Below, in pieces: positions 57,389 to 64,000 of a stretch of 64,000 bases of DNA. Location: positions 170,256-234,255 of the forward strand of contig RXJR01000020.1 in NCBI GenBank assembly GCA_003963305.1, read 5' to 3'. A program made the translations under genes and the position numbers. The stretch's first letter is position 1. Every line of letters starts with the position of its first letter. Source of the stretch: Candidatus Melainabacteria bacterium (GTDB taxonomy: Bacteria; Cyanobacteriota; Vampirovibrionia; Obscuribacterales; Obscuribacteraceae). The notes below the pieces were generated by a model that saw only the letters and a program-made list of their open reading frames with translations, made no database searches and was not told the origin of the DNA.

Positions 57389-57398
57389 CTCACGCAAG

Positions 57399-57571
57399 CG
57401 CAATGGACCGCACGCGAGACGCGTGCCAGATGGACCGCACGCGTCTCGCGTGCACATGGAACGCACGCATCCTGCGTGCACATGGAACGCACGCATCCTG
57501 CGTGCTTGCACATATGGCACTGCATCTGGTACCGGAGCGTATAAAGCAGACGCGGGACGCGTGCGGTCCAT
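57399..57571. repeat. Palindromic repeat array with inverted end copy
   Basis: Units of about 27 bp (pattern ATGGAcCGCACGCGtctCGCGTGCac) start near 57401, 57430, 57457 and 57482; each can fold as GCACGCG/CGCGTGC. After a degenerate stretch, GCAGACGCGGGACGCGTGCGGTCCAT (57546-57571) is an inverted copy. The layout is the same as at 43208. Confidence 0.85.
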
Positions 57572-57665: not shown

Positions 57666-58115
57666 TTAGTGATGATGCGGCATGGTTCGACCGTTGTAGT
57701 AGCCGCTGCCACCGTTGTAGTAGCCGTTGCTACCGCTGTAATAGCCATTGCCTCGTCCGTTCCAGTTATGGTTCTGGCGATAATTTGGCCTGTAGAATTG
57801 TGAGTTCATAAAACCCTGATTGGAATATGCTCTGTTGCCGCCCTGAGTTGCCAACCACTGTCGATACTGAGCTTTCTGGAATGCCAGCGGGTCGTTAGGA
57901 TCGATACCGGGGGCGCCAATTCCGCTGCCCTGACCGTAGCCATAACCATATCCGTAACCGTATTGCTGGTTGAGCAGATTTTGCTGATAGGCTTGCATGG
58001 CCTGTGCGTTTAGCAAATTCTGCAGGTCATTATTCCTGGCTTGCGCTGGTGAGTTCAAACTGGCAGCCAGGAATGTGGCTCCCACAAGTAATCCAGCTAA
58101 AAGTTTGTTGCTCAT
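57666..58115 (-). CDS. Secreted Gly/Tyr/Asn-rich low-complexity protein
   Basis: About 149 residues. A signal peptide (LLAGLLVGATFLAASLNSPAQA) is followed by an Asn/Gln/Leu-rich helix (NDLQNLLNAQAMQAYQQNLLNQQ), a YGYGYGYGYGQG run, a central DPNDPLAFQKAQYRQWLATQGG block, and a tail of Asn/Gly/Tyr repeats (NGYYSGSNGYYNGGSGYYNG) ending in MPHHH. Its composition suggests a surface or matrix protein; no family is recognised. ATG 58115 has AAAAGGA eight bases upstream, better than ATG 58133. Confidence 0.75.
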   Translation of the reverse strand: MSNKLLAGLLVGATFLAASLNSPAQARNNDLQNLLNAQAMQAYQQNLLNQQYGYGYGYGYGQGSGIGAPGIDPNDPLAFQKAQYRQWLATQGGNRAYSNQGFMNSQFYRPNYRQNHNWNGRGNGYYSGSNGYYNGGSGYYNGRTMPHHH

Positions 58116-58254
58116 GTCTTTGTTCCTTTTCATTCCGCCTTACGAATCTAACGACGCAGTCATCTCCGTTTAGATTCCTGTTTTCACATTAGACATATCT
58201 CATAATAGCCGCAATTGATGAACTGGAGGGCATTCCAGGGTGTCAAAATAATCA

Positions 58255-58505: not shown

Positions 58506-61043
58506 ATGAACGAATTTCATTTGCGATTCGAGCAAGCACGAGACAAGAACTTCTGGCAGCGCCTGAACCCAGATTTGCACATTACTGATGAAGCAAAACC
58601 ATTTACGATAACACCGCTGGAAATTGATCCAGCCAAACTGGAAGAAGCAAAAGCCAGTCTGAAAGCCGAAGGGTATTTTCAAGTCCATAAACTACTGGAT
58701 CCCAAACTTACTACAAAACTCGCCAGAGGCGTCGAAAACCTTCACAAAGCGGGTTGGCCGACACCATTCGCCATCATCTATGACGAATACTGGGAGCTTT
58801 TCTTTTCACTGCAGCAACTATTTGAAGCCATTCTCGACAAGGGCTACAAGCAGGTGCCGAACTTCTGGTGCTGGTACATACCCACCGATAAAAACAGCAA
58901 AGGCTGGGGACATCATCGCGATCGTCCATCAGTAAACACAGTGCTTGAAACTGGTCTGCCAGCCACTCTCACCACCTGGATTCCGCTGACTGAAGCGACG
59001 CCGGCTAATGGTTGCATTTACATAGTGCCATCACCGCTTGATCCCAATTATCCGCCTGGAGATCTCGATCGTCGTGATCTGCATGAATTGCAGAATGTGC
59101 GCGCACTTCCTGCCAGCGAAGGCGACGTGTTGGGATGGACTGAAGCATTGCTGCACTGGGGCAGTCGCAGTTCCCCTAAGGCAGAGAATCCTCGTATCAG
59201 TATCTCATTCACATTCCAGAGAGCTGATCAAAATCCATTTGAAGTGCCACTTTTCGAGCCAGATCGTTATCAAACATTCAATGAAAGACTGGGATTGATA
59301 GCGCAAAATGTCTGCAATTACGACGCTCAGGGCAAAACGAGTCCGGAGATTCTATTTGCCTGCAGACGCTTGGGTGGCTTAATTCCGACCATAAGCGTAC
59401 AAGATGGCGTACCAAGACAGATTCTCGAAAGCGACAAGCGCTTGTCGGAGTCGATGCTCTGGTCGCTGCAAGAAGAATATTTTGAAAAGCAGCGTCAAAA
59501 TTTGTGGACAGGAGATCAGTTCTATTCAACCAACCGCATGCCATTCGTAGAAGCGTATGTTGAACTTGTAACTTCCGCACTCACCGATTGCTCTTCTCTG
59601 ATCGATCCGGAACAGCCACTCTACATTCTGGAAATTGGCGGCGGCAGCGGTTGTTTTGCATATCGCTTTCTCAACGATTTTGTTGAAAATCTGGAAGATT
59701 TCGACAATCTGAAAAAGGTGAAACTGAAATACATCCTGACTGATTTTTCGGAAGCGATTGTCAAAAAATGGGCAGAAAACAAAAATCTCAACGCCCTTTA
59801 TGAGCAGGGAATTTTAGACTTCGCTGTATTTAAAGCACAAAAAGATCGAAAACTCGAATTGCGTCGATCAGGACAAACGCTCACACCTAAGGACATAAAG
59901 AACCCGCTCATCGTCATTGCCAATCATGTTTTCGACAGCATCGAGCAAGATGCTTTCCGGATTACAAATGGCATCTTGCAAGAATCCAAAGTTACCGTCT
60001 TCAGAGAAGATCCCGATGGTTCGTTCGGAGCGCAGCCATCGCTGGACGATTTGCACATCGTAGAACGCTTTCTCGACGTCGAAGGTCCATACTATGAAAA
60101 CGCAGCATTCGACAATATCATGGCTGCCTTTAGAGACGAAATCAAAGAAGCCACGTTTACGATGCCGATTGGCGCGCTAAATTGCATAGACAACTTAGCG
60201 GCATTTTGCGACGAAAAACTGATCCTCATCTCGGCAGACCAGGGATACGTGAGATTCGATACAGAACGAACAACCGGTCTCAAGAAGCTGGATTTCGACA
60301 GGCACGGATACTGTACTTTCGATGTAAATTTCATGGCCATATCCAGACTCTTCAAAGAAAACGGCGGGACGTCTTTAGTTGAGAACCTGGACTATTCAGG
60401 TTTGCGCGTCGCGTTTAATTCAATGATCAGCAACCGTTTTCAAAACACTGCACATTATTTCAAGCACTATTTGCAAAGGAAAAATTTCCTCGATTCGCAA
60501 TTACAAATCGCCGACTTGATCAAAAATGGACTGCGCGCCGGTGACTACGAATCTTCCCGTGTCGCCCTGTTTCTGTCGATCGTGAAGGCATTCAATTACG
60601 ACCCTCAAATGTTTGCAATTGCTCACAAGGATCTACTCGACGAACGTTTTAAAGATCTCGAAGAGATGAATGTACAGGTGCGGAGCGAGCTACAAGAAAC
60701 TCTTCACCGCACCATACGAAACATATACATCATCGATGACAATCACAAAATTTTCGACAGTATCTTGCGTCTCTATATACAAATTGATTGGTTTGAAGAG
60801 TGCCTGAAGTTCAGCGAAGAGATCATTGAAACTTATGGTGACGTGAGCACAGCCATCGATCATGCCGCACTGAGTTGCGAAGCCTTGAAAAAATACCGAG
60901 AAGCTTATGAGTATTTCCAACGAGCGACCAGGCTTCCTACGAGCGACCGTGATTGGGCAGCGGCCGGAATGAAGCGCATGGGGAAGGTGCTTCTGCAAAA
61001 AGGCGATAGCATAGTCAAATTCACCATTGCCCGCGCCAATTAA
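58506..61043 (+). CDS. Fusion of Fe(II)/2OG dioxygenase-like, SAM methyltransferase-like and TPR-like domains
   Basis: 845 residues, cytosolic. Residues ~45-240 resemble phytanoyl-CoA dioxygenase-type enzymes: the HxD pair His137-Asp139 (GWGHHRDRP), the distal His217 (ALLHWGS) and Arg230 (RISISF), the usual iron and 2-oxoglutarate ligands. Residues ~310-650 contain a methyltransferase-like fold with motif I LYILEIGGGSGCFAYRFL and later LIVIANHVFDSIEQDAF, the layout of the NDUFAF7/COG1565-like group. The last ~150 residues are helical and TPR-like (AALSCEALKKYREAYEYFQRATRL). The substrate is unknown. A paralogue of the last two parts lies tail to tail at 61050. Confidence 0.82.
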   Translation: MNEFHLRFEQARDKNFWQRLNPDLHITDEAKPFTITPLEIDPAKLEEAKASLKAEGYFQVHKLLDPKLTTKLARGVENLHKAGWPTPFAIIYDEYWELFFSLQQLFEAILDKGYKQVPNFWCWYIPTDKNSKGWGHHRDRPSVNTVLETGLPATLTTWIPLTEATPANGCIYIVPSPLDPNYPPGDLDRRDLHELQNVRALPASEGDVLGWTEALLHWGSRSSPKAENPRISISFTFQRADQNPFEVPLFEPDRYQTFNERLGLIAQNVCNYDAQGKTSPEILFACRRLGGLIPTISVQDGVPRQILESDKRLSESMLWSLQEEYFEKQRQNLWTGDQFYSTNRMPFVEAYVELVTSALTDCSSLIDPEQPLYILEIGGGSGCFAYRFLNDFVENLEDFDNLKKVKLKYILTDFSEAIVKKWAENKNLNALYEQGILDFAVFKAQKDRKLELRRSGQTLTPKDIKNPLIVIANHVFDSIEQDAFRITNGILQESKVTVFREDPDGSFGAQPSLDDLHIVERFLDVEGPYYENAAFDNIMAAFRDEIKEATFTMPIGALNCIDNLAAFCDEKLILISADQGYVRFDTERTTGLKKLDFDRHGYCTFDVNFMAISRLFKENGGTSLVENLDYSGLRVAFNSMISNRFQNTAHYFKHYLQRKNFLDSQLQIADLIKNGLRAGDYESSRVALFLSIVKAFNYDPQMFAIAHKDLLDERFKDLEEMNVQVRSELQETLHRTIRNIYIIDDNHKIFDSILRLYIQIDWFEECLKFSEEIIETYGDVSTAIDHAALSCEALKKYREAYEYFQRATRLPTSDRDWAAAGMKRMGKVLLQKGDSIVKFTIARAN

Positions 61044-61049
61044 TAAGCA

Positions 61050-62744
61050 CTACTGAGGTTTATTGCGTTCCATTCCTTCGCGGGCCCAATCGTGATCTGG
61101 TTCCAATTCCAGAGCCTGACGAAAGTACTCGTACGCATCCTCTCGGCGATCTAGATGCTCGCTTGCAATGGCCGCATAGTCAAAAGCTTTCCGCGACACT
61201 CCAAGGCTGGCATTGGCTTCCTTAGCCAGTGCCAGACAAAATTCGTACTTCTGCCAGCACATGCAAAATTCAAAAATTGCGGCAAGATCGCAATAATCAT
61301 TGGCGACATTAAAAACGTTCCTGAAGGTACGACCCACCAGATCGGTAACCTCATGCTCCTGTTCAAGATCCATCTCCGTCAGCTCCGGCACAAGATTTTC
61401 GAATAGTCTTGCAAAGGCACCATCAAAGATAAACGGATCAAAATTAGAACTCTGAACAATCGAAATAAAATTTGTCAGATAGGGACGGACGAAATTTTGC
61501 CCTTTCTCACAACCGACAAAAGTAAACTCTTCCAGGTTATAGCTAGCATTGCAAATGTCGCGCTTTTGTAAGTACTGTCGAAAAAAGTGACGAGTAAGTT
61601 CACATGTTGGCTTCCAGGTGGTGGCAAACATAAATCCTAAACTGGAATGATCGCCTGACTCTATCAAAGCATTGCCGCCCCTGTTCTCAACGTACCTCTG
61701 CAAAGCGTCAAAATTGACGTCAAAGGAAAAGGCACCATGTTCAGCGAATTCCTGAGTTCTCAACCCAAGCACTTGCTTGGATTCCAGACTGGCAAAACCT
61801 TTGTCGCTGACGAAAAGTGCGAGCTTATCAGCAGCCAGGTGAGACAAATTGGCTATCGACCGCATTGCACCGATCGGAAAAATCACGCTTGAATCGCTCA
61901 GTTCGCTGCGATAGAAGTGGAGAATCGAATCAAGATGAGGATCGCGATAATATGGCAATTCTAGATCTGAGTAAACTTCGGACATTCTAATCTCTTGAAT
62001 GGTCGGATTAGTTCTGCGAGCGTCTGATCCGTCTTGATCATAGTCGCTCCCTGACAAGCGAGAGCCTGAGCCATCTCGATCACTGTCGCTGTCTGACTGA
62101 CGCGAAACTTCTCTAAACAGTGCGAACTTAGTTTCCTGCAAACTCCCGTCAACGACTCTAAACGCATCGTGCTTGATCGTGTCGAAAAGATAGTTAGCGA
62201 TGACCAAGAGCGGATTCTTTAGCGCGCCACGCTCCAATAATGCACCGGAAACTTCAAGCTTGATTGCGGTGTCATTCTCCGGACTGTAAACACCAACATC
62301 CAGCTCGCCGGAATCAAAAAAAGGCTTCAGACGCAAGTTGCTTAGATGCGCATCAATATTCGATTTCGTAAAGTCAGAAAGAATGTACCGCAGCTCGAGT
62401 TTCTTCAGTCTCTCGAAATCACCCATCAGCTCTTTCAGATGATTGATAAAACGATATGCGAAACATCCGCTGCCCCCGCCTAATTCCAAAATGTAAATCG
62501 GGCTTTGCGGATCAAACTCGTCGATACAATCCAACAAGAATGAATTTACCAATTCAGCAATGGCGCCAACAAACATCATGCGGCTGGTCGAATAGAACGG
62601 CACCCGCTCCCAGGCATTCAAACTTTGACTGGCATAATACTCTTCCTGCAAAGTCCACAAAAGCGACTCAGACAATCGTCGAGCGCTCTGGACTTCTTCG
62701 CATTCGATTCCATCTCTGATAAATCGCGATGGTGATTCGGTCAC
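61050..62744 (-). CDS. SAM methyltransferase-like protein with TPR tail (paralogue of the 58506 protein)
   Basis: 564 residues. It aligns with the C-terminal two thirds of the 845-residue protein: RRLSESLLWTLQEEYYASQ, VPFYSTSRMMFVGAIAELVNSF, PIYILELGGGSGCFAYRFINHL (motif I), LLVIANYLFDTIKHDAFRVVDG, HGAFSFDVNFDALQRYVENRGG. It lacks the dioxygenase. A Ser/Asp/Gly-rich insert (SDSDSDRDGSGSRLSGSDYD) interrupts the fold. It ends in a TPR pair (EDAYEYFRQALELEPDHDWAREG). GTG 62744 lies one base after the DUF6065 stop, so it is coupled to that gene. It converges on its paralogue with a six-base gap. Confidence 0.82.
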   Translation of the reverse strand: MTESPSRFIRDGIECEEVQSARRLSESLLWTLQEEYYASQSLNAWERVPFYSTSRMMFVGAIAELVNSFLLDCIDEFDPQSPIYILELGGGSGCFAYRFINHLKELMGDFERLKKLELRYILSDFTKSNIDAHLSNLRLKPFFDSGELDVGVYSPENDTAIKLEVSGALLERGALKNPLLVIANYLFDTIKHDAFRVVDGSLQETKFALFREVSRQSDSDSDRDGSGSRLSGSDYDQDGSDARRTNPTIQEIRMSEVYSDLELPYYRDPHLDSILHFYRSELSDSSVIFPIGAMRSIANLSHLAADKLALFVSDKGFASLESKQVLGLRTQEFAEHGAFSFDVNFDALQRYVENRGGNALIESGDHSSLGFMFATTWKPTCELTRHFFRQYLQKRDICNASYNLEEFTFVGCEKGQNFVRPYLTNFISIVQSSNFDPFIFDGAFARLFENLVPELTEMDLEQEHEVTDLVGRTFRNVFNVANDYCDLAAIFEFCMCWQKYEFCLALAKEANASLGVSRKAFDYAAIASEHLDRREDAYEYFRQALELEPDHDWAREGMERNKPQ

Positions 62745-62745
62745 G

Positions 62746-63738
62746 TCAGGAGTCTTCGTCTTTCAATTCTTTACCGGTGTGGTCGAATTTTTTGCCGGTG
62801 ACGGGGCACTGTAAAATCTGCGGCGCTTGTTGCTGAGCCGGTTGACTGGACGACTCGGAGGAAGCAGATTGACCTGGCTGCGGCGCATCCTTTCCGGCTG
62901 CAGGCTGGTCTTGCTGCATCTTCTTTCGCTCGACGCGCGCATCGGCAGAATTCCACCATTCACCACTATCGAGTGATTTCTGGTGCATGTCATAGAAATT
63001 GTTATAGATGTCTCGACCTTCCATGTAGCGCAATCTCGGTTTTTCACCATCGTACTGATCGCGTTCAATACCGTAGAAATTAGCAGTCTCGACAGCCTTG
63101 TTCAATTCTTCAGGGTCGCTCAGCGCCACCATTTCATATTTATCCAGGAAGAAGCGAGGATACGGAACGATGCAACCAAGCGGCGTGCCCTTCTCGATAT
63201 AAATATCCATTTGCGGGCGCGTAATTTTGATGTTGAAAGTAAAGTCGCGACGGAGGTTGTCTGTTTCAACGACAGCATCCATCCACGACAATCCATGCAC
63301 AGGATAGTTAGGCGGAGCCTTGACCATCATGTTTACGCCTTTTGGAGTGCGGAAATAATGACGCGATTGCACCGTCACAATGCCGTGCCCAAAGTGAGAC
63401 ACGACTGTCAAATCATCGCGATTCGTTGCGTCCAGCTGGTGAACCGAAACACCGTCATTCTTGTCCGTTCCATCCCAGCGAAGAACAAAAGAATTTGTCG
63501 CCGTCAACAAAAATCCATGCTGGCTGCCAAAGACAATCGGCAAGCAGTTGTAGAAGTAGCTTGTGAACCAGGCCCGCTTGCTGCCACACTTTTCAAAGTA
63601 ATATGGCTTACCGGCGAACTCCAGTTGATCCGGCACCAGATAGATAGTATTTGGCGGCACCACAAGAGTATCGGGGTGCACCACTGGTGGTATAAAAGGC
63701 GGTCGCCTGGTTTTTCTATTTTCTTCGTCGCTGCTCAT
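62746..63738 (-). CDS. DUF6065 family protein with Gln/Ser-rich tail
   Basis: 330 residues. The body reads AWFTSYFYNCLPIVFGSQHGFLLTATNSFVLRWDGTD, VVSHFGHGIVTVQSRHYFRTPKGVNMMVKAPPNYP, DAVVETDNLRRDFTFNIKITRPQMDIYIEKGTPLGCIVPYPRFFLDKYE, the pattern of DUF6065, whose function is unknown. The C-terminus adds ~60 residues of Gln/Ser/Ala linker and a small end piece (QCPVTGKKFDHTG) resembling a zinc-ribbon half. ATG 63738 overlaps the upstream stop by four bases (ATGA); the methyltransferase start follows one base after its own stop. Confidence 0.83.
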   Translation of the reverse strand: MSSDEENRKTRRPPFIPPVVHPDTLVVPPNTIYLVPDQLEFAGKPYYFEKCGSKRAWFTSYFYNCLPIVFGSQHGFLLTATNSFVLRWDGTDKNDGVSVHQLDATNRDDLTVVSHFGHGIVTVQSRHYFRTPKGVNMMVKAPPNYPVHGLSWMDAVVETDNLRRDFTFNIKITRPQMDIYIEKGTPLGCIVPYPRFFLDKYEMVALSDPEELNKAVETANFYGIERDQYDGEKPRLRYMEGRDIYNNFYDMHQKSLDSGEWWNSADARVERKKMQQDQPAAGKDAPQPGQSASSESSSQPAQQQAPQILQCPVTGKKFDHTGKELKDEDS

Positions 63739-64000
63739 AGCACTTTAAAATAACAACGCGGTTCGAATACAAATCCATCCATGGTCTTGAACTGAAATAA
63801 CTTCGAGAAATTGCTGCGCGTAGCAGCAGGAAGAAACTCGAAGCGCGCCATATCAGGATCACAAACAACAGAGATACCAAAGTCCGGCGTCAAGAATATT
63901 TCGCTCAAAATGACCGAACCATCAATCATATCGAACGTAATATTGCTCTTGTCATGGCGCAATTTGCCACTGCCAATGCGAAACGTTCTAAAGACTTCAA
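63735..64000 (-). CDS. Unknown protein, C-terminal part only (5' end outside window)
   Basis: The minus-strand frame is open from the window edge to a TGA at 63737-63735. The visible ~87 residues (RTFRIGSGKLRHD, FDMIDGSVILSEIFLTPDFGISVV, ARFEFLPAATRSNFSKLFQ, FVFEPRCYFKVL) look like beta strands. A TTG at 63962 could start a shorter product, but the open frame continues upstream. It overlaps the DUF6065 gene by four bases, so it belongs to the same operon. Confidence 0.65.
   Translation of the reverse strand, partial: EVFRTFRIGSGKLRHDKSNITFDMIDGSVILSEIFLTPDFGISVVCDPDMARFEFLPAATRSNFSKLFQFKTMDGFVFEPRCYFKVL

Follow-up and report, generated by a model that had tools for sequence, protein, structure and literature searches.

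Gene layout at the end of the window

The window, a 64,000-nt stretch of contig RXJR01000020.1 from Candidatus Melainabacteria bacterium (genome G000), ends in a cluster of genes for a putative modification system. Its central gene encodes a fusion of a PhyH-type Fe(II)/2-oxoglutarate (2OG) dioxygenase, a Methyltransf_28 methyltransferase and a tetratricopeptide-repeat (TPR)-like region; a paralog without the dioxygenase, a protein of family DUF6065 and a small protein, u134, are encoded beside it. The open reading frames (ORFs) were found at the positions named in an earlier sequence-only reading, whose "further unknown gene" corresponds to u134. The features were as follows.

58506..61043, + strand: PhyH-Methyltransf_28-TPR fusion, 845 aa (ORF and Pfam; orthologs at 50%, 40% and 35% identity in genomes G001 and G005)
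58506..59390, + strand: PhyH (Fe(II)/2OG dioxygenase) domain of the fusion (His137, Asp139, His217, Arg230)
59391..60455, + strand: Methyltransf_28 (NDUFAF7/MidA-type) domain of the fusion (S-adenosylmethionine (SAM) motif ILEIGGGSG and NHVFD intact)
60456..61040, + strand: helical TPR-like C-terminal region of the fusion (weak TPR score; helical repeats in the model)
61050..62744, - strand: Methyltransf_28-TPR paralog without PhyH, 564 aa (ORF, Pfam, comparison with the fusion)
62746..63738, - strand: DUF6065 protein, 330 aa, predicted dUTPase-like beta fold (Pfam, model, fold matches)
63735..64139, cut at the window end (64000), - strand: u134, small protein of 134 aa (4-bp overlap with DUF6065)
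past the window end, after u134 in the same operon: DUF6065-TPR protein, 609 aa

The fusion and its paralog are convergent, with stop codons 6 bp apart. The paralog and DUF6065 genes are separated by 1 bp and DUF6065 and u134 overlap, a spacing indicative of one operon, which runs on past the window into the DUF6065-TPR gene; the contig extends 2.4 kb beyond the window. Orthologous clusters were present in two other genomes (G001 and G005), showing that the arrangement is real and not due to chance.

The fusion scored 26.7 bits for PhyH (cut-off 22) and 26.5-29.4 bits for Methyltransf_28 (cut-off 23.3) in Pfam, with a weak TPR match. All residues of the HxD...H iron triad and the 2OG-binding Arg were present, and this ligand set was kept in 16 of 18 PhyH proteins of the family. 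The paralog shared 38% identity with the fusion (E 5e-109), had no PhyH domain, and scored 20.8 bits for Methyltransf_28, slightly below the cut-off, with TPR also present. Only one of the two proteins has a dioxygenase with intact ligands, as had been claimed from the letters of the DNA. The SAM glycine motif was intact in both (ILEIGGGSG in the fusion, ILELGGGSG in the paralog), its terminal GSG recurred in most relatives, and Methyltransf_28 was called in the fusion and in 8 of 12 family members. This methyltransferase type (PF02636) takes its name from its relative NDUFAF7; the NE.FDALP motif of NDUFAF7 reads NHVFDSIEQ in the fusion.

The nearest PDB sequences of the PhyH domain were DhiD, PHYHD1 and SnoK. 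A structure model of the fusion, built from three sequences, had a mean predicted local distance difference test score (pLDDT) of 44 and an unusable PhyH part; the C-terminus was modelled as helical repeats, with residues 761-830 at pLDDT 71-87. In a tree of methyltransferase domains the PhyH-less paralog clustered with the fusions, and six of seven stand-alone methyltransferase-TPR (MT-TPR) proteins were separate from this group, the seventh (from the congener G002) being a long branch; the tree did not resolve the paralog as sister of any one fusion. At about residues 219-246 the paralog has an acidic Asp/Ser/Gly insert, which is coded by a 42-bp tandem repeat.

Genes inherited together

The full fusion was found in only three of 53 genomes of the order (Obscuribacterales; several genomes incomplete), G000, G001 and G005, with four copies in all. 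PhyH-only proteins (about 15 genomes) and MT-TPR-only proteins (seven genomes) were both commoner. G001 carried one fusion and G005 two, neither having a PhyH-less paralog; one G005 fusion had its iron ligands changed to Gln/Gly and its Arg to Ser. The two paralogs, which the sequence-only reading had taken as the defining pair, therefore do not always co-occur, and their component genes are frequent alone, so that the pair does not hold as the unit. An active copy together with a copy whose dioxygenase is lost or dead was seen in two genomes (G000 and G005), in differing forms.

In the operon of G005, u134, DUF6065.DUF6065-TPR, DUF6065-TPR and PhyH-MT-TPR genes follow one another on one strand with overlaps of 4-11 bp. 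The last slot is held by the dead-dioxygenase fusion, and the same slot is taken by the PhyH-less paralog in G000. The u134 profile matched exactly the six genomes with DUF6065 and none of the 47 others, every match lying directly upstream of a DUF6065 gene (naive p 4e-8, which ignores kinship among genomes). All three fusion genomes fall within these six. Judged from the sequences, the constant unit is u134-DUF6065 rather than the paralog pair.

The locus of G002 was collinear with the window on both flanks (HD-GYP, signal peptidase and pth; HTTM and TadE/G-like genes), and DUF6065, u134 and fusion genes were all absent from it, DUF6065 and u134 also being absent genome-wide. The locus is empty although the flanks are collinear, indicating that the set comes and goes together. 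Operons and co-inheritance support the earlier idea of a modification set to which all these genes belong. A separate PhyH-TPR fusion occurs in G009 (L070:7237-9699, G009:C264); its PhyH ligands are lost, and by eye it seems to carry a methyltransferase of a different class.

Predicted fold and genomic company of DUF6065

The DUF6065 protein of the window scored 122 bits (PF19541; cut-off 26.6), and sequence searches of the PDB with DUF6065 gave no match. An AlphaFold2 model was built from ten divergent rows. Nearly all top Foldseek rows for this model were dUTPases (E 6.6e-4), as were 49 of 50 VIA-align rows (Z to 10.4); the remaining row was pp71 of human cytomegalovirus (HCMV), a dUTPase-derived protein. 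Profile-profile comparison with dUTPases of the same lineage gave E 1.6e-4; for controls, either reversed or unrelated, E was 0.14-0.95. DUF6065 is thus predicted, with limited confidence, to have the dUTPase fold. Its motifs were altered: the Arg-Ser-Ser of motif 2 was replaced by PPN/GPxN/VSN, the Asp of motif 3 by Glu158, the Tyr of motif 3 was missing from the window protein, and no motif 5 was seen, although motif 3 was still discernible as GVIETDW / AVVETDN. DUF6065 is probably not a dUTPase because the active-site motifs are not kept.

Hydroxylases were found repeatedly beside DUF6065. In the congener G001 one DUF6065 was fused to a prolyl-4-hydroxylase (P4H)-like domain (PDB 3itq/5hv0, E 1.2e-12), and the same locus codes a protein with Cupin_8/JmjC and 2OG-FeII_Oxy_3 domains; G030 has a gene for a 2OG oxygenase just upstream of DUF6065. 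Cyanophages syn9/Syn10, S-CREM1, S-RIM44, P-TIM40, Sf-FP1 and Sf-FR1 had one or more tryptophan halogenase genes, then a DUF6065-like gene, then 2OG/JmjC genes, the block being flanked on one side by genes for tail fibers or collagen-like proteins and on the other by head-neck genes, in so far as these are annotated. S-CREM1 is described as having ten 2OG oxygenases (PMC9964418), and the passages found in that paper leave their DUF6065-like partner undiscussed. The DUF6065-like genes of phage contigs L098, L141 and L142 each had a 2OG oxygenase gene (2OG-FeII_Oxy_3/5) as immediate neighbor, and in L141 an Asp/Asn beta-hydroxylase gene lay two genes away. The association of DUF6065 with hydroxylases is recurrent, as a qualitative observation.

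Viral contigs searched directly with DUF6065 of this bacterial group gave no match; the viral relatives were reached only via more typical family members. In one viral contig (L140:5366-6774) a true dUTPase gene lies two genes upstream of the DUF6065-like gene. On the megaplasmids of S. meliloti, many strains gave DUF6065 matches split into two or three pieces, as if frameshifted, and in S. medicae the match was in one piece.

A possible polypeptide-modification set and its alternatives

We favor, tentatively and with slightly less than even confidence, a small, patchily inherited set for modifying proteins or peptides, combining hydroxylation and methylation with dUTPase-fold and TPR partners. 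The features read directly are the domain identities, the metal ligands, the SAM motif, the overlapping operons, the co-inheritance of u134 and DUF6065 and the recurrent hydroxylase company of DUF6065; we infer the protein substrate, the order of reactions and the roles of DUF6065 and u134. A PhyH-fold hydroxylase and an NDUFAF7/MidA-type SAM methyltransferase on one TPR protein would act on a shared polypeptide, the PhyH part hydroxylating it and the Methyltransf_28 part methylating it; human NDUFAF7, which gives the methyltransferase type its name, is a protein-arginine methylase (PMC3829151). The TPR regions may bind peptide, and the DUF6065 proteins and u134, as partners without catalytic activity, would bind or present the substrate or serve as a scaffold for the complex. 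The methyltransferase copy in the operon would have lost its dioxygenase (absent in G000, ligands mutated in G005), leaving hydroxylation to the separate intact fusion. The sequence-only reading had allowed "a peptide or lipid" as substrate; the context of DUF6065 tentatively narrows this towards protein or peptide.

Several observations weigh against this reading. No substrate gene was identified. The DUF6065 model was of low confidence (pLDDT averaging 48, with 60-74 over most of the core). The P4H-like domain fused to DUF6065 in G001 has its HxD replaced, and one PhyH domain in G005 is also without metal ligands. In haloviruses, S-RIM4, L139/L140 and others, the neighbors of the DUF6065-like gene are nucleotide-metabolism genes (ribonucleotide reductase (RNR), ThyX, true dUTPase) or others, most without a hydroxylase; in Sinorhizobium and Niveispirillum, among the few bacterial cases from other lineages, DUF6065 has an autotransporter and a giant RTX-like protein as neighbors, with no hydroxylase nearby. 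The methyltransferase profile did not find NDUFAF7 structures in the PDB (E up to 10). Finally, PhyH enzymes mostly act on small molecules, and the PDB relatives of this domain are mainly natural-product or acyl-CoA oxygenases.

This last point favors small-molecule or lipid tailoring, in which PhyH would hydroxylate and Methyltransf_28 methylate a secondary metabolite or acyl chain, as does the G001 locus with its FkbH-like HAD protein and acyltransferase_3, and an AMP-ligase about 10 kb further. However, these three genes were not in G000 or in the G005 pieces, and no nonribosomal peptide synthetase, polyketide synthase, carrier-protein or ribosomally synthesized and post-translationally modified peptide (RiPP) precursor genes were recognized among the scanned cluster proteins of three genomes (the G000 contig ends shortly past the window, and the G005 sequence is broken into small pieces). 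Methyltransf_28 is moreover of the protein-methylase type. We regard tailoring as unlikely, though a serious candidate.

The fold bears on another proposal, in which DUF6065 keeps nucleotide binding or hydrolysis and the oxygenase and methyltransferase act on bases or nucleotides. The predicted dUTPase-like fold, phage relatives near RNR, ThyX, dUTPase and UvdE, and the GenBank label "triphosphate nucleotidohydrolase" on the S-CREM1 homolog are consistent with it. The altered motifs 2 and 3 and the absence of a visible motif 5 argue against it, as do the ordinary dUTPase that genomes of the order already carry and the kinds of partner that DUF6065 has (TPR proteins, halogenases, peptide-type hydroxylases); we consider this improbable. 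Signaling, with MT-TPR and DUF6065-TPR proteins as adaptors of Hanks-type Ser/Thr kinases regulated by the enzymatic domains, draws on gene order: five of seven stand-alone MT-TPR genes lay directly downstream of a kinase-TPR gene (L054, L055, L057, L059 and L062; gaps -4 to 68 bp), and the third DUF6065 gene of G000, a DUF6065-TPR gene (L005:6376-10151, G000:C32), lay 60 bp downstream of another Ser/Thr kinase-TPR gene. By contrast, kinase genes were absent from the clusters of G000, G001 and G005, and the PhyH ligands were intact in nearly the whole family, which argues for catalysis. A signaling role seems about as improbable as a nucleotide one.

Two candidate substrates for the favored polypeptide modification were considered. 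The secreted Gly/Tyr/Asn-rich repeat protein encoded nearby (57666-58133, - strand) has 62-79% identity in both congeners and was rejected, being also present in G002 without the cluster. Collagen-like proteins were uninformative, occurring in 27 of 38 relatives irrespective of the cluster.

Each domain is already known; what is new is their combination. The cyanophage halogenase/2OG-oxygenase operon (syn9, Syn10, S-CREM1, S-RIM44, P-TIM40) resembles the cluster in that a DUF6065-like gene (phrog_7084) is tightly syntenic with Fe/2OG and JmjC oxygenases, but tryptophan halogenases are present there, Methyltransf_28, TPR and u134 were not seen, and its function in phages is likewise putative. 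NDUFAF7/MidA shares the Pfam domain and the intact SAM motif, whereas the methyltransferase here is joined to TPR and PhyH regions. The fusion belongs to the fold family of PhyH-type dioxygenases and has all metal and 2OG ligands, but differs in its fusion to methyltransferase and TPR and is only distantly similar to all solved members. DUF6065 recalls the dUTPase superfamily, including herpesvirus pp71-type dUTPase-derived proteins, in predicted fold and discernible motif 3, yet differs in its catalytic motifs, C-terminal additions and TPR or P4H fusions. The literature searched (open-licence papers) contained neither the domain combination nor the u134-DUF6065 pairing, the DUF6065 fold or its recurrent hydroxylase neighbors; DUF6065 was unmentioned there, and the bacterial and phage gene sets linked here had no earlier link.

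An uncharacterized Pfam family thereby gains a fold prediction and, in the 2OG hydroxylases, a partner open to testing, and the cluster points to polypeptide hydroxylation and methylation in a little-studied bacterial lineage. More speculatively, DUF6065 might represent a widespread and so far undescribed group of dUTPase-fold proteins that partner Fe/2OG hydroxylases (as well as halogenases or methyltransferases) in dedicated polypeptide-modification systems of bacteria and tailed phages, the window holding a version with a PhyH-methyltransferase-TPR enzyme and u134; cyanophage operons beside tail-fiber genes would then gain a candidate explanation.

Two repeats were observed around the cluster: a 26-27-bp tandem repeat just past the HD-GYP gene (L004:1648-1761; window 57392-57505), and a GGT microsatellite upstream of the DUF6065-TPR gene at the contig end beyond the window (L004:10538-10645).

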